Positions 55,665 through 64,000 of a DNA stretch of 64,000 nucleotides are shown one piece after another (position 1 is the first letter of the stretch; every line of letters starts with the position of its first letter). The DNA is from Alcaligenes faecalis (GTDB lineage: Bacteria; Pseudomonadota; Gammaproteobacteria; Burkholderiales; Burkholderiaceae_B): the NCBI RefSeq assembly GCF_002443155.1, contig NZ_CP023667.1, positions 3,720,001 to 3,784,000 on the forward strand, in the 5' to 3' direction. The translations under genes were made by a program, and so were the position numbers. Under the pieces are notes generated by a model that was not told where the DNA came from, searched no databases, and saw nothing but the letters and a program-made list of their open reading frames with translations.

Positions 55665-56636
55665 ATGAAAAAGAAATGGGCGCAGGTTTTGCTGGGAACG
55701 GCGTTGGCATTGGCAACGGGCATGTCTGTTGCCAGCAAATTGCCGGACACCATACGTTTGGTCGTGGGCTATCCGGCTGGTGGAACAGCAGATGCCGTCG
55801 CGCGGGTGTATGCCGAGCAATTGCGCGAAAAACTGGGTGTGAATGTGGTGGTGGATAACCGTGCAGGCGCGGGTGGGCAGGTTGCCGCTCAAGGTTTTTT
55901 GCGCTCGCCTACCGATGGCTCGGTGCTGCTGGTCGCCAATAATCACATGATGACCACCCTGCCCCTGACGGTGAAAACGGTCAGCTACGATCCCATGAAG
56001 GATTTTGCGCCGGTGGCGGTGATTGCCAAGTTCGAACATATCTTTGTGGTGGGTAAAACCACGCCTGCCAATACCTTGCAGGAGTACGTGGAACTGGTGC
56101 GCAAGGAACCGGAAAAGTACGGCCACTATGGCATTCCTGCTCCTGGCAGCGCTCCCCAGTTCATGGGCTACAGCATCGCCAAGAAGAACGATATCCAGAT
56201 GTCCCCCGTGCCTTACAAAGGGGGCGCACCCTTGATCAACGACCTGCTGGGAGACCATATCCCTGCCGGCGTGGATGCTGTGGGCATGATTACCGAACAC
56301 GTTGCTGCTGGCTCGGTGCGAGTTCTGGGAATTACGGGTGAAGAGCGTCTGCCTATCCTCAAGGACGTGCCTACCTTTGTAGAGATGGGTTACGGCGATC
56401 TGAAGGCTTCGGGCTGGATGGGGATTTTTGCCCCACTGGGCATGGAGCCGGAGATGGTCAAACAGTTCCAGGATGCCTTCAATGAAGTGGCCAAGCTGCC
56501 ACGCATTGAAAGCGCGATTGTGCCGATTGGCTTTCGACCCGAGTCAGGCGATGCTCAGGAACTGTCCCGCATTGTTCAGGATGATCTGGATACCTGGGGA
56601 CCCATCATCAAGGAATCGGGGTATTTGCAGCAGTGA
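55665..56636 (+). CDS. Bug/TctC-family extracytoplasmic binding protein
   Basis: A 323-residue periplasmic solute receptor. The signal peptide (about 1-24) is followed by DTIRLVVGYPAGGTADAVARVYAEQLREKLGVNVVVDNRAGAGGQVAAQ and the usual GIPAPGSAPQFMGYSIAKK, the ligand-loop region. Bug proteins bind small carboxylates or amino acids and are very numerous in Bordetella and Alcaligenes relatives; most lack an adjacent transporter, as here. It follows the cyclodeaminase gene by 30 bases and probably serves the same pathway. The next gene lies 625 bases away behind a terminator. Confidence 0.9.
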   Translation: MKKKWAQVLLGTALALATGMSVASKLPDTIRLVVGYPAGGTADAVARVYAEQLREKLGVNVVVDNRAGAGGQVAAQGFLRSPTDGSVLLVANNHMMTTLPLTVKTVSYDPMKDFAPVAVIAKFEHIFVVGKTTPANTLQEYVELVRKEPEKYGHYGIPAPGSAPQFMGYSIAKKNDIQMSPVPYKGGAPLINDLLGDHIPAGVDAVGMITEHVAAGSVRVLGITGEERLPILKDVPTFVEMGYGDLKASGWMGIFAPLGMEPEMVKQFQDAFNEVAKLPRIESAIVPIGFRPESGDAQELSRIVQDDLDTWGPIIKESGYLQQ

Positions 56637-56795
56637 AACCCAGGGCGTTGGTGCAGGCGCCTGCTTGTGATGGGCGATCTTCATCAAGCCCGATGAGTGC
56701 AGACTAGCGTTTCGACCCGGTTCTTATGGAACATGGAGAGCAACGGCCAGTCGCAGCTAACAGGGCAAAACTTGTTAGCGCAGAAAAGCTGGAAT

Positions 56796-56828
56796 GCGGG
56801 CCTGATGCCAAATCAGGTCCGCTTTTTT
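56796..56828 (+). terminator. Terminator of the argE-type operon
   Basis: GCGGGCCTGAT (56796-56806) pairs with ATCAGGTCCGC (56812-56822), with one G-T wobble, followed by six T. Confidence 0.92.
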
Positions 56829-57160
56829 ATGGCGATTTCAAAAAGGGAACCGGCACTTTCAGAGTCTGTTGGTTGTGTCTGGTGTGAGGCCAGCTTTTGG
56901 GTGGCATTTCCTTATCAGAAAGAGGCCTCGTAGCCCGAAAAGGGAGCTGGTTATCTATGTGCTGAGACATCGAATTTTCGGTTCGTAGGCAGCCTGTGGG
57001 TAGCTGAAATACCTCTGGTCTATACCTTCAAAGAGCACTTGAATGTTGCCACCAAGATTGGGCTGGCAAACAGGTTTCGACTGGGCCCAATCATCCGTGA
57101 AAACTACTGAAAATCAATTAAGTGACTGATAGATAACAATAAAAAATTATTTTAAGTCTG

Positions 57161-57174
57161 TAGGGAATTCCCTA
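57161..57174. promoter_or_regulatory. Candidate operator of the ABC/nic operon
   Basis: TAGGGAATTCCCTA is a perfect 14-bp palindrome about 90 bases upstream of the livK-type start. Direct repeats TCAGTTAAT follow at 57194-57202 and 57228-57236. They suit a repressor or activator of the pyridine genes, but no regulator is in the window to pair them with. Confidence 0.5.
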
Positions 57175-57261
57175 TATTTTATTTATTGGCTAGTCAGTTA
57201 ATAATATTTCAAATTAGAAATAATCAATCAGTTAATTAAAAACCAAGGAAGGAGATACAAG

Positions 57262-58392
57262 GTGCGCAAGACGATATTGACGATGGGGTTGCTCATGACG
57301 CTGGGTGCTGCGGGGGCCGTGCAAGCGCAAACCATCAAAATTGGTGTGATTCAGCCTTTGACCGGGTCGGTGGCCTACAACGGGGAGGCTGATGTGAATG
57401 GCTCCAAGTTGGCTGTCAAAGAGCGAAATGCTCGTGGCGGGGTCCTGGGCAAACAGGTTGAACTGGCTATTGAGGATGGAGAATGCCAGCCCTCCAAAAC
57501 CGTGAACGCGGCTGAAAAACTGATTCAGAAAGACAAGGTGCCAATTATTTCCGGCGCCTTTTGCAGCTCCGCCACCATTGCGGCTATGAGCGTGGCGCAA
57601 AAGTACAAAGTGCCCCTGCTCTCGGGCGTGTCGTCAAAAAGTGATTTGACCGAGCGTGGCAATGAGTGGTTTTTCCGAACCGCAGAAACCGATGGTTTGC
57701 TGGCCCATGCCTTCGCAACGATTCTGGTCGAGCAGCTCAAGCTGAAAAAAATCGCCTACATCGGGGTGAATGATGACTGGGGTCGGGGGGGCATGGAGGA
57801 GTTCTCCAGCCAGATCGAAGCCCTGGGCGGTGAAACCGTGCAAAAGCTGTATTTCGACCATGGCACCACGGATTTCTACACCTTGTTGACGCGGGTACGG
57901 GCCGCTAAACCGGATGGTGTCTTTGTGGCAGCCGAAACTCAGGACGGCTCGATTCTGGTCAAACAGATGAAGGAAGTGGGTCTGGAGAGTCTGATTTTCG
58001 GCGTGGGCAGTTGGGCGACGGCGGACTTCGTGAATCTGGCCGGCTCTGCATCAGAAGGCATTCATGCTGCCGTTCCTTATGCCCACACTTTGCAGCGTCC
58101 CGAAAATCTGGAGTTCGTGCAGTCCTATCAGAAAGAGTATGGCGAGCTGCCCGGCAAGTATTCGGTGGCTGGCTATAACGCGATGAACATCATCATGGAC
58201 GCGATCGAACGCGCAGGGGAAGCCGATCCGGACAAGATTCGTCTGGCGCTGCCGGCCACTGATTACAACGGCCCCAATGGCAACTTCAAATTCAACGAAA
58301 AACGCCAGGGCTACGGCTTTGATGCCGTGCTGGTGAAGCTTCAAGGCGGGCAGCCGGAAATTGTTGCTCAGGCAAAGGTAACGGCGGACTAA
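57262..58392 (+). CDS. ABC transporter periplasmic binding protein, branched-chain amino acid type
   Basis: A 376-residue LivJ/LivK-type receptor (Peripla_BP_6). The signal peptide ends QAQ (about residue 23), followed by TIKIGVIQPLTGSVAYNGEADVNGSKLAVKERNARGGVLG, the family opening. The start codon is GTG 57262 behind AAGGAAGGAG. It heads an operon of two permeases, two ATPases and three pyridine-catabolism enzymes. The ligand is therefore more likely an N-heteroaromatic acid (nicotinate, picolinate, or a hydroxylated or ring-cleaved derivative) than leucine; this is inference from context. Confidence 0.9.
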   Translation: MRKTILTMGLLMTLGAAGAVQAQTIKIGVIQPLTGSVAYNGEADVNGSKLAVKERNARGGVLGKQVELAIEDGECQPSKTVNAAEKLIQKDKVPIISGAFCSSATIAAMSVAQKYKVPLLSGVSSKSDLTERGNEWFFRTAETDGLLAHAFATILVEQLKLKKIAYIGVNDDWGRGGMEEFSSQIEALGGETVQKLYFDHGTTDFYTLLTRVRAAKPDGVFVAAETQDGSILVKQMKEVGLESLIFGVGSWATADFVNLAGSASEGIHAAVPYAHTLQRPENLEFVQSYQKEYGELPGKYSVAGYNAMNIIMDAIERAGEADPDKIRLALPATDYNGPNGNFKFNEKRQGYGFDAVLVKLQGGQPEIVAQAKVTAD

Positions 58393-58436
58393 GAGCACGA
58401 TGAGCTGCGGATTTTATCGTTTGATGAGGGGGCATT

Positions 58437-59312
58437 GTGTTTGATTTATTGCTGCAGTTCATTGCCAATGGACTGGTGAACGGGACGTTCTACGCGTTGT
58501 CGGCCCTGGGTCTGACCCTGATTTTTGGCTTGATGCGATTGGTGAACTTTGCCCATGGCGAGTTCTACATGATCGGTGGCCTGCTGGGATGGTTGGTGAC
58601 CCAGCAACTGGAGCTGAACTTCTTTGTGGGCCTGGCGCTGGTCATGGTGATCGTCGCGGTGTTTGGTTGGCTGATGGATCGCTTCCTGATTGCCCGTATC
58701 CGGGACAAGGGCCCGGAGCCTGGCATTTTGCTGACTATCGGTTTGTCGATTTTCCTGACGAATACCGCTCTGATGATCGTGGGTACGGCACCTCTGAAAG
58801 TGGTGGCGCCGGTGCCTAATACTCCCCTGTTTTTGGGACCGATATTCATCACCGAGGTGCGCGTTTTTGCGATCGGGATGTCTATTGCGGCCATCGTCGG
58901 CGCACGCCTTCTGATCCAGAAAACCCGCTTGGGTAAAGCCATGCGGGCCACGTTCCAGGATTCGACGGCGGCCAGTCTGGTCGGTATCAATACCGCCACG
59001 ATTTACGCCTCCACTTTCGCCTTGGGTGTGGTTCTGGCGGCAACCTCGGGCATGTTGCTCAGCTCCATTTATGTCGCGCAGGCTTCGATCGGTGGCCTGA
59101 TCAGTTTGAAGGCCTTTGTGGTGGTCATTCTGGGCGGGATGGGCAATTTCGGTGGTGCCATTCTGGGTGGCTTGATCCTGGGCGTGGCAGAAGCGCTGTG
59201 GGGAGGTTATGTGCAAACGGGGACGGCGGACATGGTGGGCTTTGCCCTGGTTATCTTGATTCTGTTCTTCCGCCCCTATGGCTTGTTTTCGGTTCGAGCG
59301 GAGCGCGCGTAA
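58437..59312 (+). CDS. ABC transporter permease, LivH type
   Basis: A 291-residue integral membrane subunit with about eight helices. Typical LivH sequences are NGLVNGTFYALSALGLTLIFGLMRLVNFAHGEFYMIGG at the start and AFVVVILGGMGNFGGAILGGLILGVAEAL near the end. The start codon is GTG 58437 behind GAGGGGG, 45 bases after the binding-protein gene. It forms the translocation channel with the LivM-type protein. The family call is certain; the substrate is not. Confidence 0.92.
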   Translation: MFDLLLQFIANGLVNGTFYALSALGLTLIFGLMRLVNFAHGEFYMIGGLLGWLVTQQLELNFFVGLALVMVIVAVFGWLMDRFLIARIRDKGPEPGILLTIGLSIFLTNTALMIVGTAPLKVVAPVPNTPLFLGPIFITEVRVFAIGMSIAAIVGARLLIQKTRLGKAMRATFQDSTAASLVGINTATIYASTFALGVVLAATSGMLLSSIYVAQASIGGLISLKAFVVVILGGMGNFGGAILGGLILGVAEALWGGYVQTGTADMVGFALVILILFFRPYGLFSVRAERA

Positions 59313-60272
59313 ATGAAAATAGAACGTCACTTTATGGTGGGCTTCCTGGTCTTGTCGGCGTTGCTCGCTTGTTTTGTGCAGAACGATTATTTGCTGCATA
59401 TCCTGGTGTTGGTGCTGATGTATAGCGTGCTGGCCAGCAGCCTCAATTTGATTATTGGCTATGTGGGGGAGTTCCCGCTGGGGCACGTGGCATTTTTCGG
59501 CCTGGGGGCGTACTCGGTCGCGATTTTGAGTTCACCTGCAGTGGGTTGGCCCGTCACGATCACGATTGCAGCGGCGGCCTTGATTGCTGCGGCAGCCGGC
59601 TACGTGATTGGGCGTGTGACTTTGCGTTTGAATGGGCCCTTCTTTGTCATCGTGACGCTGGCCTTTGCCGAGGTCTTGCGTCTGCTGGCCAATAACTGGG
59701 TGGAGCTGACCAATGGTCCGATGGGTATCTCGGGTGTGGCTCATCCCGCCCTGCTGGATATCTCACCTTGGCTGGCCGGCAAGCGGGGTTTTGTGGTGAT
59801 GGGCATTGTGCTGGCCGCCATCACTTTCTACATCTGCTACCGCCTGGTGCATTCCAGTGCGGGCCGTGCTGCCGTCACTCTGCGAGAGAACAACTACGTG
59901 GCGCAATCGGTCGGTATTGATCCTTTTCGCTACTCGCAGTTTGTCTTTGTGGTGGCGGCCTTTCTGGCCGGGATTGCCGGGGCTTACTACGCCAGCTACA
60001 TCAGTTTTGTAGGGCCGGAAGTTTTCGGTTTTCCGTTTACCGCGACCATGATCATTATCGTTTTGCTGGGCGGTAAAGGCACCTTGCTGGGGCCTATTGC
60101 AGGGGCCATTGTGGTGGCCTTGCTGGAAGAGTATTTGCGCGAATTCAAGGAGTTGCGTCTGTCCTTATTTGGACTGATCGTCATGGCTTCGGTGCTGTTT
60201 GCACCGGATGGAATCATGGGATTTGTGCAGCAGCGTTTTCATCATTTATTTGGGAGGACGCGTCATGCTTGA
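59313..60272 (+). CDS. ABC transporter permease, LivM type
   Basis: A 319-residue integral membrane subunit. Family features are LNLIIGYVGEFPLGHVAFFGLGAYSVAIL and RENNYVAQSVGIDPFRYSQFVFVVAAFLAGIAGAYYASYISFVGPEVF (EAA-like loop contacting the ATPases). It starts directly at the livH-type stop with no spacer (TAAATG) and its own stop overlaps the next gene by eight bases, so translation is coupled throughout. Confidence 0.92.
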   Translation: MKIERHFMVGFLVLSALLACFVQNDYLLHILVLVLMYSVLASSLNLIIGYVGEFPLGHVAFFGLGAYSVAILSSPAVGWPVTITIAAAALIAAAAGYVIGRVTLRLNGPFFVIVTLAFAEVLRLLANNWVELTNGPMGISGVAHPALLDISPWLAGKRGFVVMGIVLAAITFYICYRLVHSSAGRAAVTLRENNYVAQSVGIDPFRYSQFVFVVAAFLAGIAGAYYASYISFVGPEVFGFPFTATMIIIVLLGGKGTLLGPIAGAIVVALLEEYLREFKELRLSLFGLIVMASVLFAPDGIMGFVQQRFHHLFGRTRHA

Positions 60273-61023
60273 AGTGTGCGGTCTCAGCAAATCCTTTGGC
60301 GGTATTCATGCGGTTCAGGATATTGATTTCACCGTTCCTGCCGGGCAAATCGTCAGCTTGATCGGGCCCAATGGGGCTGGCAAAACAACGTGCTTCAACC
60401 TTATCACCGGCTTTTATCAGCCTACTCGTGGGCGGGTGTTATGGGATGGCAAAGAGGTCACGGCCAGCAAGCCGTATCGCATGGCACAGCAGGGCGTCAT
60501 TCGCACTTTTCAAAAGACTAATGTGCTGCGGGCTCTGAGTGTTTTCGACAATTTGGTCCATGCCCATTATTTGGCTGATCGGGCACCCTTGTGGCGCACT
60601 TTCTGGCCTAGCAAAGAGCAGGCAAAAACCGAACAGGAAATCATCGTCTCGGCCCGTCGTATTCTCGATCAGATTGGCTTGGCCAAGCGTGCTGATGTCC
60701 TGGCCAGCTCCTTGTCTTGTGGCGAGTTGCGACTGCTGGAGGTGGGCGTTGCTCTTGGTGCTAAACCCAGATTGTTGATGCTGGATGAGCCAGCCGCCGG
60801 ACTTAATACACATGAAGCAGAAGGCTTGGCCGACCTGCTCAAACAGCTGCCTGGGCAGTGGGTGGAGTCCATTTTGCTGGTAGAGCACAACATGGGTCTG
60901 ATTATGCGTGTATCTGACCAGATCGTGGTCATGAACTTTGGCAAAAAACTGGCAACGGGAACACCGGCAGAAATTCAGGCCAATGAGCAAGTGTTGGAAG
61001 CCTATATGGGGAAAGCGGCATGA
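60265..61023 (+). CDS. ABC transporter ATP-binding protein, LivG type
   Basis: A 252-residue ATPase. It has Walker A GPNGAGKTT, the signature SLSCGELRLLEVG (SCGE in place of SGGQ), Walker B PRLLMLDEPAAG and the H-loop VEHNMG. The ATG at 60265 is set by TGGGAGG; a longer frame into the livM-type gene is not used. It overlaps the previous gene by eight bases and the next by four (ATGA). It pairs with the LivF-type ATPase to energise uptake. Confidence 0.93.
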   Translation: MLEVCGLSKSFGGIHAVQDIDFTVPAGQIVSLIGPNGAGKTTCFNLITGFYQPTRGRVLWDGKEVTASKPYRMAQQGVIRTFQKTNVLRALSVFDNLVHAHYLADRAPLWRTFWPSKEQAKTEQEIIVSARRILDQIGLAKRADVLASSLSCGELRLLEVGVALGAKPRLLMLDEPAAGLNTHEAEGLADLLKQLPGQWVESILLVEHNMGLIMRVSDQIVVMNFGKKLATGTPAEIQANEQVLEAYMGKAA

Positions 61024-61748
61024 GTAGACAGGACATTGAACCTCTATTGGCTTTGCAGGATGTGGTGGCGGGTTATGGCAATTTGACGGCCCTGCATGGC
61101 GTCAGCTTGCATGTACAGCCTGGTGAAGTTGTGGCCATTCTGGGAGCCAATGGCGCCGGAAAATCCACCACGCTCCGGGCAATCTCCGGCCTGATTCGCC
61201 CTACTTCCGGCCAGATCACCTGGAAAGGACAAGTGATCAGTGGTCGCAGCCCTGAGCATATTCTGAAGCTGGGCTTGGCTCACTGCCCTGAAGAACGGCA
61301 TGTGTGGCCTGAAATGACCGTTGAAGACAATCTGGATCTGGGCGCTTACCTGATCAAGTCCAAGACTGAAGTGGAGCGGCGTAAAGGCATTGCTTTTCAT
61401 CGCTTCCCGCGCCTGAAAGAGCGATACAGGCAACTGGCAGGCACGCTTAGCGGCGGGGAGCAGCAGATGCTGGCGATTGCTCGGGCATTGATGTCAGAAC
61501 CGGAGCTGTTGATTCTGGACGAGCCCTCCTTGGGGCTCAGCCCCAAGATGGCTTTGGAGGTCTTCCAGGTGGTGCGGGACATCAGTGAGCATGGCGTGTC
61601 CATTCTGGTAGTGGAACAGAACGTGCATAACGCGCTGAACGTAGCCAGTCGAGCCTATGTGTTGGAGACAGGGCGTGTTATTGCAGAGAAAGACAGCGCC
61701 AGCATGCTGAAAGATCCTGAACTATTGAGTGCTTACCTGGGAGGCTGA
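61020..61748 (+). CDS. ABC transporter ATP-binding protein, LivF type
   Basis: A 242-residue ATPase with Walker A GANGAGKSTT, the signature TLSGGEQQMLAIARAL and Walker B PELLILDEPSLGLSP, matching LivF throughout. Its ATG overlaps the LivG-type stop (ATGA). Its own stop overlaps the deformylase start (TGATG), so the transporter and the catabolic enzymes are in one translationally coupled unit. This ties the transporter to pyridine catabolism. Confidence 0.93.
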   Translation: MSRQDIEPLLALQDVVAGYGNLTALHGVSLHVQPGEVVAILGANGAGKSTTLRAISGLIRPTSGQITWKGQVISGRSPEHILKLGLAHCPEERHVWPEMTVEDNLDLGAYLIKSKTEVERRKGIAFHRFPRLKERYRQLAGTLSGGEQQMLAIARALMSEPELLILDEPSLGLSPKMALEVFQVVRDISEHGVSILVVEQNVHNALNVASRAYVLETGRVIAEKDSASMLKDPELLSAYLGG

Positions 61749-62584
61749 TGATGAGCATGAACAAGACGACTGAACTCCCATCGCGCCTTAGTTACGGCGC
61801 CCATGTTCACGCCAATGGCATACGGCAGCACTACTTGCGTTATGCCGGTCCCGGACCTGCCTTGGTGCTGGTGCCGGGTATCACCAGCCCTGCTCCCACC
61901 TGGGGCTTTGTGGCAGAGCGTCTGGCCCTGCATTTTGATGTGTATGTGCTTGATGTACGTGGTCGTGGTCTTTCTCAAGCAGGCACAGATCTGGATTACG
62001 GCGTGAATGCTTGCGCGGATGATCTGTGCGAGTTCGTTCGGGAGCTGGCACTGGAGTCGCCCATTTATGTGGGGCACTCCATGGGGGCGCGCATTCTGTT
62101 GCGTGCGGCCAGCCGAGGCTTGGCCAAGGGGGCCGCCATGGTGCTGGTGGATCCGCCAGTGTCCGGCCCAGGGCGACGCCCCTATCCGGCGAATATCGCC
62201 TGGTACACCGATTCCATTGCACAGGCTCAACAAGGTATGAGCGCCGAGCAGATGCGGCAGTTTTGCCCGACCTGGACTCCCGAGCAACTGGCGCTGCGCG
62301 CCCAGTGGCTGCACACCTGCGATGTGCGCGCGGTGACGGACAGCTACGAGTGGTTCCACACCGACGATGCGTTCCCGGACTTTAGCCAGCTCAATGACTG
62401 GAAGGTGGCCCTGATGGTGGCGGGCAAGGGGGATGTCATTCGCGATGAGGATAGTAAAGAGGCGCAGTCCTTGAAGCCTGACTTGCAGATCTTACGTGTA
62501 CCAGACGCTGGGCACATGATCCCCTGGGACGACGAGGAAGGCTTTTATCGCGCATTGGGCACCTTTCTGGGCCTTACCTTTTAA
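61748..62584 (+). CDS. nicD: N-formylmaleamate deformylase (NicD/PicE type alpha/beta hydrolase)
   Basis: Hydrolyses N-formylmaleamate to maleamate and formate, the step after ring cleavage of 2,5-dihydroxypyridine. The 278-residue alpha/beta hydrolase has nucleophile Ser111 (GHSMGAR), Asp135 (VLVDPP) and His256 (DAGHMIPWD). The spacing between these residues is nearly that of the P. putida NicD triad as I recall it (101, 125, 245). The oxyanion segment is LVPGITSPAPTWG. The ATG overlaps the LivF stop; an ATG three codons later is also possible. It sits directly before the dioxygenase gene, which supports the specific call. Confidence 0.87.
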   Translation: MMSMNKTTELPSRLSYGAHVHANGIRQHYLRYAGPGPALVLVPGITSPAPTWGFVAERLALHFDVYVLDVRGRGLSQAGTDLDYGVNACADDLCEFVRELALESPIYVGHSMGARILLRAASRGLAKGAAMVLVDPPVSGPGRRPYPANIAWYTDSIAQAQQGMSAEQMRQFCPTWTPEQLALRAQWLHTCDVRAVTDSYEWFHTDDAFPDFSQLNDWKVALMVAGKGDVIRDEDSKEAQSLKPDLQILRVPDAGHMIPWDDEEGFYRALGTFLGLTF

Positions 62585-62603
62585 CAAGAAACAGGAGTGG
62601 AAG

Positions 62604-63644
62604 ATGGCTGTATCTGATCATCAAATGGTTCAGGCCTGGAATGAGGTGCTGAGTCTTTCTGGAGTGAAGCCGGGGCAGATGGTCACCATTCTGACCAGTT
62701 TGCATACTCATCCTCAAACCTTGGCTACCGCCAAACTGGCCGTGGCATCTTTGGGGGCAACCCAGATGCAGGTGGACTTGCTGCCTGTAAACGCAGAAAA
62801 AGCATTGAGCCGCGACCTTCTGGCTTACTTGGGCACGACTCCGCTGACGGGTAATCCAGCAGCGATTGCCGCCCTCAAGGCGAGTGATTTGGTGCTGGAT
62901 CTGATGACCTTGCTGTTCTCTCCCGAACAGCATGAGATTTTGAAGTCGGGCACCAAAATTCTCTTGGCAGCCGAACCGCCCGAGGTGCTGGTGCGTATGG
63001 TGCCATCCTTGCAGGATAAGGAACGTGTGGAGCGTTCGGCACAGGTGCTACAGGGCGCTCGTGAAATGCGGGCCACGTCCAGGGCAGGTACGGATCTGGT
63101 CATGCCTTTGGGGCAGTACCCGGTAGTAAAGGAATACGGCTTTGTGGATGAGCCGGGGCGCTGGGATCACTGGCCCAGCGGTTTTATCCTGACTTGGCCA
63201 AACGAAGGTCAGGCTCATGGCCGCATCGTGATTGATCGTGGCGACATCTTGTTGCCCATGAAGTCCTATGCGGCTGACCCGATCACCATGACAGTCGAGA
63301 ACGGTGTAGTGACCTCGATTGAAGGTGGGTTGGATGCCGAGCTGCTGCGTGAATACATGGCCTCATTCAATGATCCTGAGGCTTACGCCATGTCCCACAT
63401 AGGCTGGGGTTTGCAGCCCCGTGCTCACTGGTCCACGCTTGGCCTTTACGACAAAGAGCAAACCTTGGGCATGGATGCCCGTGCCTATGCGGGCAATTTC
63501 TTGTTCTCTTTTGGCCCCAATAATGAGGTCGGGGGCGACCGCACGACGGCTTGCCACATCGATATTCCGCTGCGTGCTTGCACCGTGACCGTAGATGGTC
63601 GCGAGACCGTTCGGGAGGGCAAGCTTGTGGAGGAGTTGGCATGA
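62604..63644 (+). CDS. nicX: 2,5-dihydroxypyridine 5,6-dioxygenase (NicX/PicD type)
   Basis: Iron enzyme that opens the ring of 2,5-dihydroxypyridine to N-formylmaleamate. The 346-residue protein has the M29-aminopeptidase-like fold of this family. The predicted ferrous ligands His265 (MSHIGWG), His318 and Asp320 (TTACHIDIP) fall at the same residue numbers I recall for P. putida NicX. That makes a true aminopeptidase unlikely, as do the neighbours: deformylase upstream and maleamate amidase downstream. A GGAG site precedes the ATG; the stop overlaps the next start (ATGA). Confidence 0.9.
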   Translation: MAVSDHQMVQAWNEVLSLSGVKPGQMVTILTSLHTHPQTLATAKLAVASLGATQMQVDLLPVNAEKALSRDLLAYLGTTPLTGNPAAIAALKASDLVLDLMTLLFSPEQHEILKSGTKILLAAEPPEVLVRMVPSLQDKERVERSAQVLQGAREMRATSRAGTDLVMPLGQYPVVKEYGFVDEPGRWDHWPSGFILTWPNEGQAHGRIVIDRGDILLPMKSYAADPITMTVENGVVTSIEGGLDAELLREYMASFNDPEAYAMSHIGWGLQPRAHWSTLGLYDKEQTLGMDARAYAGNFLFSFGPNNEVGGDRTTACHIDIPLRACTVTVDGRETVREGKLVEELA

Positions 63645-64000
63645 GCAGCCAGAGTGTTTACGAGCGACAGGGATTTGGGCAAGGGCTGGAGCTTGAAGGC
63701 AATGTCGGGCTGTTAATTGTGGATTTCGTTAACGGTTTTGCCGACCCTCAAGCATTTGGTGGTGGAAATATTCTGGAAGCCATTGAGCAAACGCGCATGG
63801 TTCTGGCGGATGCGCGGGCACAGAACTGGCCGGTGGCGCACAGCCGCATCGTCTTTGCCGATGACAGTGCCGACCGTAATGTATTCGGCCTGAAAGTCCC
63901 CGGTTTGGTGCAGCTGCGAGAGCACAATCCAGCTAGTGCCATTGTCGATGCCTTGAAGCCAGCACCGGGTGAACTGGTCGTGCGTAAAACGGTTCCATCG
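63641..64000 (+). CDS. nicF: Maleamate amidohydrolase (NicF/PicF type), N-terminal part
   Basis: Converts maleamate to maleate and ammonia. Only 120 codons are visible before the window ends; there is no stop. The sequence MSSQSVYERQGFGQGLELEGNVGLLIVDFVNGFADPQAFGGGNI is of the cysteine-hydrolase (isochorismatase-like) family, with predicted catalytic Asp28 (LLIVDFVNGF) and a lysine near residue 116 (VVRKTVPS). The catalytic cysteine lies beyond the edge. Its ATG overlaps the nicX stop, so it is coupled to the dioxygenase. The order deformylase-dioxygenase-amidase is that of the A. faecalis pic cluster as I recall it. Confidence 0.88.
   Translation, partial: MSSQSVYERQGFGQGLELEGNVGLLIVDFVNGFADPQAFGGGNILEAIEQTRMVLADARAQNWPVAHSRIVFADDSADRNVFGLKVPGLVQLREHNPASAIVDALKPAPGELVVRKTVPS

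Follow-up and report, generated by a model that had tools for sequence, protein, structure and literature searches.

A Liv-type importer tied to a flavin monooxygenase in a putative hydroxypyridine carboxylate operon of Alcaligenes faecalis

The hpa operon of A. faecalis JQ135, for 5-hydroxypicolinate, reportedly consists (Qiu et al. 2018) of one FAD monooxygenase making 2,5-dihydroxypyridine together with dioxygenase, deformylase and amidase genes, and its maleate isomerase is said to be encoded remote from the operon. The same content, with a single-component FAD monooxygenase gene next to those for dioxygenase, deformylase and amidase, is present in an operon at the right-hand end of a stretch of 64,000 nucleotides of A. 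faecalis DNA (the window; positions 3,720,001-3,784,000 of a complete 4.08 Mb chromosome, contig NZ_CP023667.1 of assembly GCF_002443155.1), and the present genome likewise has one isomerase relative elsewhere. Likened by this gene content, the enzymes of the window are probably those of the JQ135 hpa operon and hence already known; what is added here is the role of the ATP-binding cassette (ABC) importer encoded ahead of them, its link across genera to the group A flavin monooxygenase of the operon (FMO-A), and a shared operator. Computed directly were the genes with their order and junctions, the association of the importer with FMO-A, the palindrome that they share and the features that set FMO-A apart from NicC. 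We consider it rather probable that the operon is for taking up and degrading a pyridine carboxylic acid hydroxylated in the para position, with 5-hydroxypicolinate the likeliest, and that the LivKHMGF-type system is its importer. PMC6460240 calls Alcaligenes JQ135 a degrader of 5-hydroxypicolinic acid, and a figure legend of PMC6692525 names HpoO, without a sequence, as a 5-hydroxypicolinate monooxygenase. The nic and pic clusters of Alcaligenes and Bordetella (PMC6403243 and PMC10142695) have the lower pathway from 2,5-dihydroxypyridine in common with this operon and differ in their upper enzymes.

With the ligand, the reaction of FMO-A, the direction of transport and the palindrome-binding regulator as we infer them, the LivK-type receptor would bind the periplasmic acid, which the LivHMGF complex would import using ATP. 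FMO-A would swap the carboxyl for a hydroxyl group to give 2,5-dihydroxypyridine, NicX would open the ring to N-formylmaleamate, NicD would release formate and NicF would release ammonia to leave maleate, which a maleate isomerase encoded elsewhere in the genome would convert to fumarate. A TetR repressor acting on an AT-rich palindrome before the receptor and FMO-A genes would switch both on together.

The preliminary description of this stretch had the importer welded to the lower pathway, into whose genes it runs, but comparison with other genomes showed that it is tied to FMO-A instead. Among nicX loci drawn from other genomes (the best 80 of 589 confirmed stretches, so that the rates apply to that draw; a gene was scored as present at at least 50% identity, or at least 55% for FMO-A, over at least 40% of its length), FMO-A was present in 30, and all five importer genes in 21 of these, compared to none of the 50 loci without FMO-A, 18 of which carry a monooxygenase that is NicC-type or otherwise remote (Fisher P = 1.4e-12, uncorrected for kinship). 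With the full five-gene importer turning up again in 21 of these 80 loci, the arrangement is not due to chance. The importer loci come from Alcaligenes, Paenalcaligenes, Eoetvoesiella, Pigmentiphaga, Pseudomonas, Variovorax, Comamonas and Azospirillum; in most of the genera outside the Alcaligenes group FMO-A directly follows LivF and a gene for a presumed maleate isomerase lies ahead of nicD, in the Alcaligenes group it is nicD that comes after LivF, with FMO-A placed after nicF, and the link persists despite this altered gene order. On a tree of FMO-A the importer label needs four changes, so that the importer was gained or lost more than once.

Genome surveys, with E-value cut-offs set to part FMO-A and this receptor from remoter relatives, gave the same picture. 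The receptor was found in 28 and FMO-A in 35 of 268 genomes of the family, with all 28 receptor genomes within the 35, and the two genes lay on one contig, about 4.5-8 kb apart, in 26 of the 28 (on separate contigs in the other 2). Ten Alcaligenes genomes in this draw had both genes (5) or neither (5), across 399 genomes of the order the receptor and FMO-A were found in the same 2, and on plasmids the receptor was found in 8 records, all from Azospirillum and all with FMO-A. A Falsirhodobacter locus (L110) has FMO-A with a different ABC importer and no nicDXF within the stretch, and therefore the transporter there goes with the monooxygenase alone.

FMO-A itself lies just beyond the window. 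The preliminary description had placed the upper pathway outside the window, which is correct in that it starts past the edge, but it is neither missing nor remote, as a single FMO-A gene begins after a gap of 93 bp from the end of nicF at 64258; as it adjoins nicF, no nicotinate or picolinate hydroxylase is needed, and the sequence right of 64000, where such hydroxylases were to be looked for, holds instead this upper-pathway enzyme, an MPAB-type gene and tetR. The best solved relatives of FMO-A are a decarboxylative vanillate 1-hydroxylase (8x38), an unnamed FAD-binding protein (8r2t), a tropone 2-monooxygenase and 6-hydroxynicotinate 3-monooxygenases. In protein and plasmid searches its close relatives carry generic names only (FAD-dependent monooxygenase, salicylate hydroxylase), a plasmid-borne relative at 40% bears the name 6-hydroxynicotinate 3-monooxygenase, and no match was named HpaM. 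The enzyme acting before NicX must yield 2,5-dihydroxypyridine, and a decarboxylating para-hydroxylase could do so from either 6-hydroxynicotinate or 5-hydroxypicolinate.

It is thus possible, though unlikely, that importer and FMO-A serve 6-hydroxynicotinate. FMO-A would then be another, divergent 6-hydroxynicotinate 3-monooxygenase, and acid leaked by other microbes would be scavenged by the importer. This acid would give the same product and has the same para relation of hydroxyl to carboxyl, the 6-hydroxynicotinate 3-monooxygenases 8uiq and 5eow are within the five best solved relatives of FMO-A, and H211 and Y215 of NicC are retained. The genome, however, already has a true NicC, matching 5eow at E 2e-225 and encoded far from the operon, to which FMO-A is only 35% identical, and H47, C202 and H302 of the nic cluster's NicC, which we take to be active-site residues, are replaced by Q, by S or A, and by F respectively in all 30 FMO-A proteins of the fetched loci (Q, S and F in that of the window's operon). 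A maximum-likelihood tree of 49 proteins, from which L025 was dropped as only 30% identical to NicC, further split 31 FMO-A from 18 NicC-type proteins into separate clades, each at 100/100. Judged by sequence, FMO-A belongs with the decarboxylating hydroxylases and is not a NicC, which favours 5-hydroxypicolinate over 6-hydroxynicotinate as its likely substrate.

Nicotinate and picolinate themselves, which the preliminary description had suggested through their hydroxylases, are unlikely substrates and were discarded, as both sets are encoded elsewhere in the genome. Four nicX relatives were found: the window copy, two at 69-70% and one at 39%. One of the two at 69-70% (L103), about 0.87 Mb away, adjoins Fer2, molybdopterin-binding and cytochrome c proteins resembling a nicotinate dehydrogenase, parts of which were not found among the open reading frames (ORFs) listed at 57262-67203. 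The other of this pair (L104) adjoins an amidohydrolase (Amidohydro_2) and Rieske oxygenase subunits, as a picolinate set would; these proteins may be PicC and PicB, and the PicC-type decarboxylase and ring-hydroxylating oxygenase of a pic cluster are thus at this locus and not in the operon. The nicotinate-type and picolinate-type sets have their own nicDXF copy each. Since these sets and the true NicC sit elsewhere, the operon of the window is a third 2,5-dihydroxypyridine pathway of this genome, separate from the nicotinate and picolinate routes. The fourth nicX relative (39%; L105, 2,583,436-2,584,440) adjoins an MFS transporter and a flavin reductase, and perhaps belongs to another pyridine route with a two-component oxygenase.

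The three lower-pathway enzyme names are supported by matches to solved structures: nicX matched the 2,5-dihydroxypyridine 5,6-dioxygenase 7cn3 (E 4.5e-120), nicD the deformylase 4l0c (3.7e-88) and nicF 3ot4/3uao, listed as putative isochorismatase (1.8e-84). Among named genomes, the nicX genes nearest to that of the window belong to Alcaligenes faecalis AU14 (99%), A. pakistanensis (97%) and Alcaligenes sp. SORT26 (96%). In other loci the gene before nicD encodes an Amdase-family protein, annotated as an Asp/Glu racemase, which we presume to be the maleate isomerase; the lone relative of it in the present genome (62%; 3,284,424-3,285,176) is distant from every nicX copy and would have to serve all of the 2,5-dihydroxypyridine routes. 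In Paracoccus L108 the gene at the nicX position is publicly annotated as “leucyl aminopeptidase”.

Other transporters take the place of the importer in some FMO-A loci. Loci without the importer were inspected in 6 of 9 cases (L018, L044 and L061 were left out), together with 3 plasmid regions. In Caballeronia L033 and plasmid L109 the transporter is a symporter that most resembles PcaK, the 4-hydroxybenzoate transporter, at 514 and 506 bits (cut-off 770), and that scores 416 bits against the aromatic-acid symporter family (cut-off 418.55), and L048 has a gene judged by eye to be near-identical to it. In Paracoccus L108 and Falsirhodobacter L110 a receptor-permease-ATPase-permease set lies right before FMO-A, the receptor being of NMT1 type in L110 and without a Pfam match at 1e-8 in L108. 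A weaker link was seen in Telmatospirillum L071, with an NMT1-type set on the opposite strand with Rieske genes; BenE-type and receptor-like genes follow nicF in Burkholderia sp. Ac-20365 (L073), and no recognised transporter was seen on inspection of L014 and L015. The PcaK-like, BenE- and NMT1-type transporters near FMO-A in several of these loci count in favour of the main reading.

These replacements bear on a second explanation, to which we give marginally less weight than to 6-hydroxynicotinate: that importer and FMO-A serve some other aromatic or pyridine acid or acids, such as an aminopyridine carboxylate or 4-hydroxybenzoate, with 2,5-dihydroxypyridine arising from only some of them. 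The resemblance of the replacing symporters to PcaK, although below cut-off, would suit it, as would the activity of the best solved relative of FMO-A upon vanillate and the best solved relative of the receptor by sequence, 4ey3, which has p-hydroxybenzoate, the benzene analogue, bound and counts for the main reading as well. In one locus (L073) a VanA-like Rieske oxygenase gene, together with one resembling a reductase, stands ahead of FMO-A, and the upper pathway may be extended there. Against this, the lower pathway in the 30 FMO-A loci is of the 2,5-dihydroxypyridine type, although the draw is biased that way because the loci were found by nicX.

Separately from these loci, Cupriavidus L021, L027, L035, L042, L045 and L067 have a different Liv-type cassette, whose receptor is 25% identical, at about 5 kb from nicDXF, with a PicC-like gene between the two in L021. 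A Liv importer may have been recruited independently to a picolinate-type cluster in these loci.

The importer has the make-up of a HAAT/Liv-type system, namely a LivK-type receptor, two BPD_transp_2 permeases and two ABC ATPases in one unit, so an ordinary branched-chain amino acid importer standing beside catabolic genes by chance has to be considered. Family names favour this, as do the names given to relatives of the receptor in databases (branched-chain amino acid transport proteins) and its best structural matches, LivK and LivJ, although the fold comparison is uninformative as a guide to the ligand because amino-acid and hydroxybenzoate receptors score alike. All five proteins, however, are well under the NCBI cut-offs for the amino-acid system LivKHMGF (receptor 177 bits against 477, LivH 142/379, LivM 181/366, LivG 251/362 and LivF 235/441), and the genome has 11 further receptor relatives at 24-30% identity. 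The receptor has Ser at the positions of S79 and T102 of leucine-binding protein and Gly (G249), invariant in 43 of 43 aligned receptors, at that of E226, the acidic residue facing the amino group of the ligand; the acidic residue of branched-chain amino acid receptors is thus not found in this one. Amino-acid import was discarded on these scores, this Gly and the link to FMO-A across genera, and we regard it as improbable. That the importer carries a ring-opened or later intermediate (maleamate or maleate) and not the ring acid would fit its one-base overlap with nicD in Alcaligenes, but is very improbable, as it is missing from all 50 nicX loci without FMO-A, most of which have nicD and nicF, and FMO-A, not nicD, comes after LivF in most other importer genera. 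A binding-protein-dependent importer for an N-heteroaromatic acid, as first proposed from the sequence, is still the best reading and is supported here, with 5-hydroxypicolinate as the most likely acid.

The importer and FMO-A genes also share a candidate operator. As a plain listing of palindromes before the receptor was too noisy, a motif search was carried out on a set of 14 of the 22 upstream regions, some members of which are related, and palindromic AATTAATT-like half sites were found in 14 of 14, with a score of 240.5 compared to 111-119 in six shuffled sets. With a matrix made from 12 of the 14 sites, two repeats having been removed, the top three sites in 50001-80000 of the window and the sequence joined to it were at 57218, 64282 and 57184. 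The site before FMO-A, which was outside the training set, beat every other tested 150-base stretch of the locus in 19 of the 30 FMO-A loci; in 8 one other such stretch scored as high, and in 3 (L013, L026 and L073) no palindrome site was found before FMO-A. A further site lies near tetR in L026, L068 and L072. The specificity of the site is weakened by 7 of the 50 other loci scoring above 16, mostly Cupriavidus loci of picolinate type, the best of which reached 24.1 compared to 17.9 for the weakest importer locus. A tetR gene (at least 50% identity) was present in 24 of the 30 FMO-A loci and in none of the 50 others, and because of this linkage the TetR protein is the probable binder of the palindrome, where a MarR/NicR-like regulator had been anticipated right of 64000.

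The open frames bear out the coordinates and junctions first reported for the five Liv-type genes running into nicD, nicX and nicF (Table 1). The LivF stop and nicD start share TGATG (61746-61750), the nicX stop and nicF start share ATGA (63641-63644), LivG and LivF overlap by ATGA, and the FMO-A stop and the start of the MPAB-type gene overlap by one base in TAATG. The unit continues past the window edge up to the end of tetR, so the window most likely holds the first two thirds of an operon spanning 57262 to about 67203, and its genes look like one co-regulated unit. The terminator-like hairpins on either side have the most pairs in their respective lists, although such sites numbered 12 in the first region compared to 8.6 ± 3.3 in shuffles, which is weak alone, and 6 in the second compared to 5.5 expected. 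A scan for sigma-70 promoters across 56600-64000 gave 0 sites compared to 4.2 ± 2.0 in shuffles, and therefore no promoter was placed.

Table 1. Features of the operon and its flanks, numbered from the first nucleotide of the window
Feature	Position	Strand	Basis or remark
Terminator-like hairpin parting operon from upstream gene	56796..56822	+	11 pairs, 7 G-C, T-rich tail
Candidate operator, weaker copy before receptor gene	57184..57203		Score 18.2
Candidate operator, main copy before receptor gene	57218..57237		Score 26.3, top in 50001-80000
LivK/HAAT-kind periplasmic receptor	57262..58392	+	GTG start; open frame, Peripla_BP_6
LivH-type permease	58437..59312	+	Open frame, BPD_transp_2
LivM-type permease	59313..60272	+	Open frame, BPD_transp_2
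LivG-type ATPase	60265..61023	+	ABC_tran; ATG start picked within longer open frame from 60199
LivF-type ATPase	61020..61748	+	Open frame, ABC_tran
N-formylmaleamate deformylase (nicD type)	61748..62584	+	Open frame, structure-sequence match
2,5-dihydroxypyridine 5,6-dioxygenase (nicX type)	62604..63644	+	Open frame, structure-sequence match
Maleamate amidase (nicF type)	63641..64258	+	Open frame, structure-sequence match; window edge at 64000
Candidate operator between nicF and FMO-A	64282-64301		Outside window
Group A flavin monooxygenase (FMO-A)	64352-65560		Outside window, after nicF
MPAB-type gene	65560-66459		Outside window, after FMO-A; PF09995, E 5.8e-52
tetR	66496-67203		Outside window, after MPAB-type gene
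Terminator-like hairpin after tetR	67286-67310		Outside window

An MPAB/rubber-oxygenase-type gene is also present in three other Alcaligenes loci (L004-L006), and a relative (47%) precedes the receptor in Paenalcaligenes L013; no match was found in L007 or L008. Beyond the first hairpin the operon is preceded by a gene named from its sequence as a Bug/TctC-like periplasmic receptor (55665-56636), upstream of which lie genes resembling a deacetylase, a threonine-dehydratase relative and an ornithine-cyclodeaminase relative.

More broadly, we think the chances about even that the receptor founds a class of the Liv family specific for a hydroxypyridine carboxylate (5-hydroxypicolinate), within a TetR-controlled module of FMO-A and importer found across alpha-, beta- and gammaproteobacteria, whose transporter slot would have been refilled several times by unrelated families (Liv-type ABC, NMT1-type ABC, PcaK-like symporter and BenE-type) under related palindromic operators. 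Almost all Liv-type importers are annotated as carrying amino acids, and public annotation of Azospirillum plasmids even calls this receptor “penicillin-binding protein activator”; here the genomic partner can point to a specific and testable ligand. If the proposal is true, it would provide a high-affinity ABC route for uptake of a pyridine acid and explain how a third 2,5-dihydroxypyridine pathway persists alongside those for nicotinate and picolinate; the receptor and the TetR/operator pair might also serve as sensors for hydroxypyridine acids.

No description of a Liv-type importer for a pyridine carboxylate was found in the open-licence literature searched, which is weak evidence of absence as most subscription journals were outside its scope. 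Among the closest described systems is CouPSTU of Rhodopseudomonas palustris (PMC3610893), an ABC importer too, with a receptor of the LivK family and with genes that cluster and are co-regulated with those for catabolism; its ligands are aromatic carboxylic acids (phenylpropenoids) bound with nanomolar Kd, 4-hydroxybenzoate did not bind, and its receptor (4jb0) is a remote relative of that of the window (21% over 343 aligned residues). The benzoate-derivative receptors of Rhodopseudomonas (4ey3, 4eyg, 4evq, 4evs and 4f06) have the same fold as the window receptor at 24-29% identity, but their ligands, p-hydroxybenzoate and vanillate, are benzenes and not pyridines. According to PMC11452294, Bug27 and Bug69 of Bordetella pertussis are periplasmic binding proteins for a pyridine acid, quinolinate, as is proposed here for a hydroxypyridine acid, but they belong to another receptor family and are proposed to serve NAD synthesis and not breakdown. 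The preliminary description had treated a binding-protein-dependent importer beside the lower pathway as a departure, but this has a precedent in the nicotine cluster of Agrobacterium tumefaciens S33, where, according to PMC5500553, strongly co-induced ABC transporter genes lie beside the 2,5-dihydroxypyridine lower pathway; that cluster differs from the present operon in its putrescine/spermidine-type transporter and its other upper pathway.

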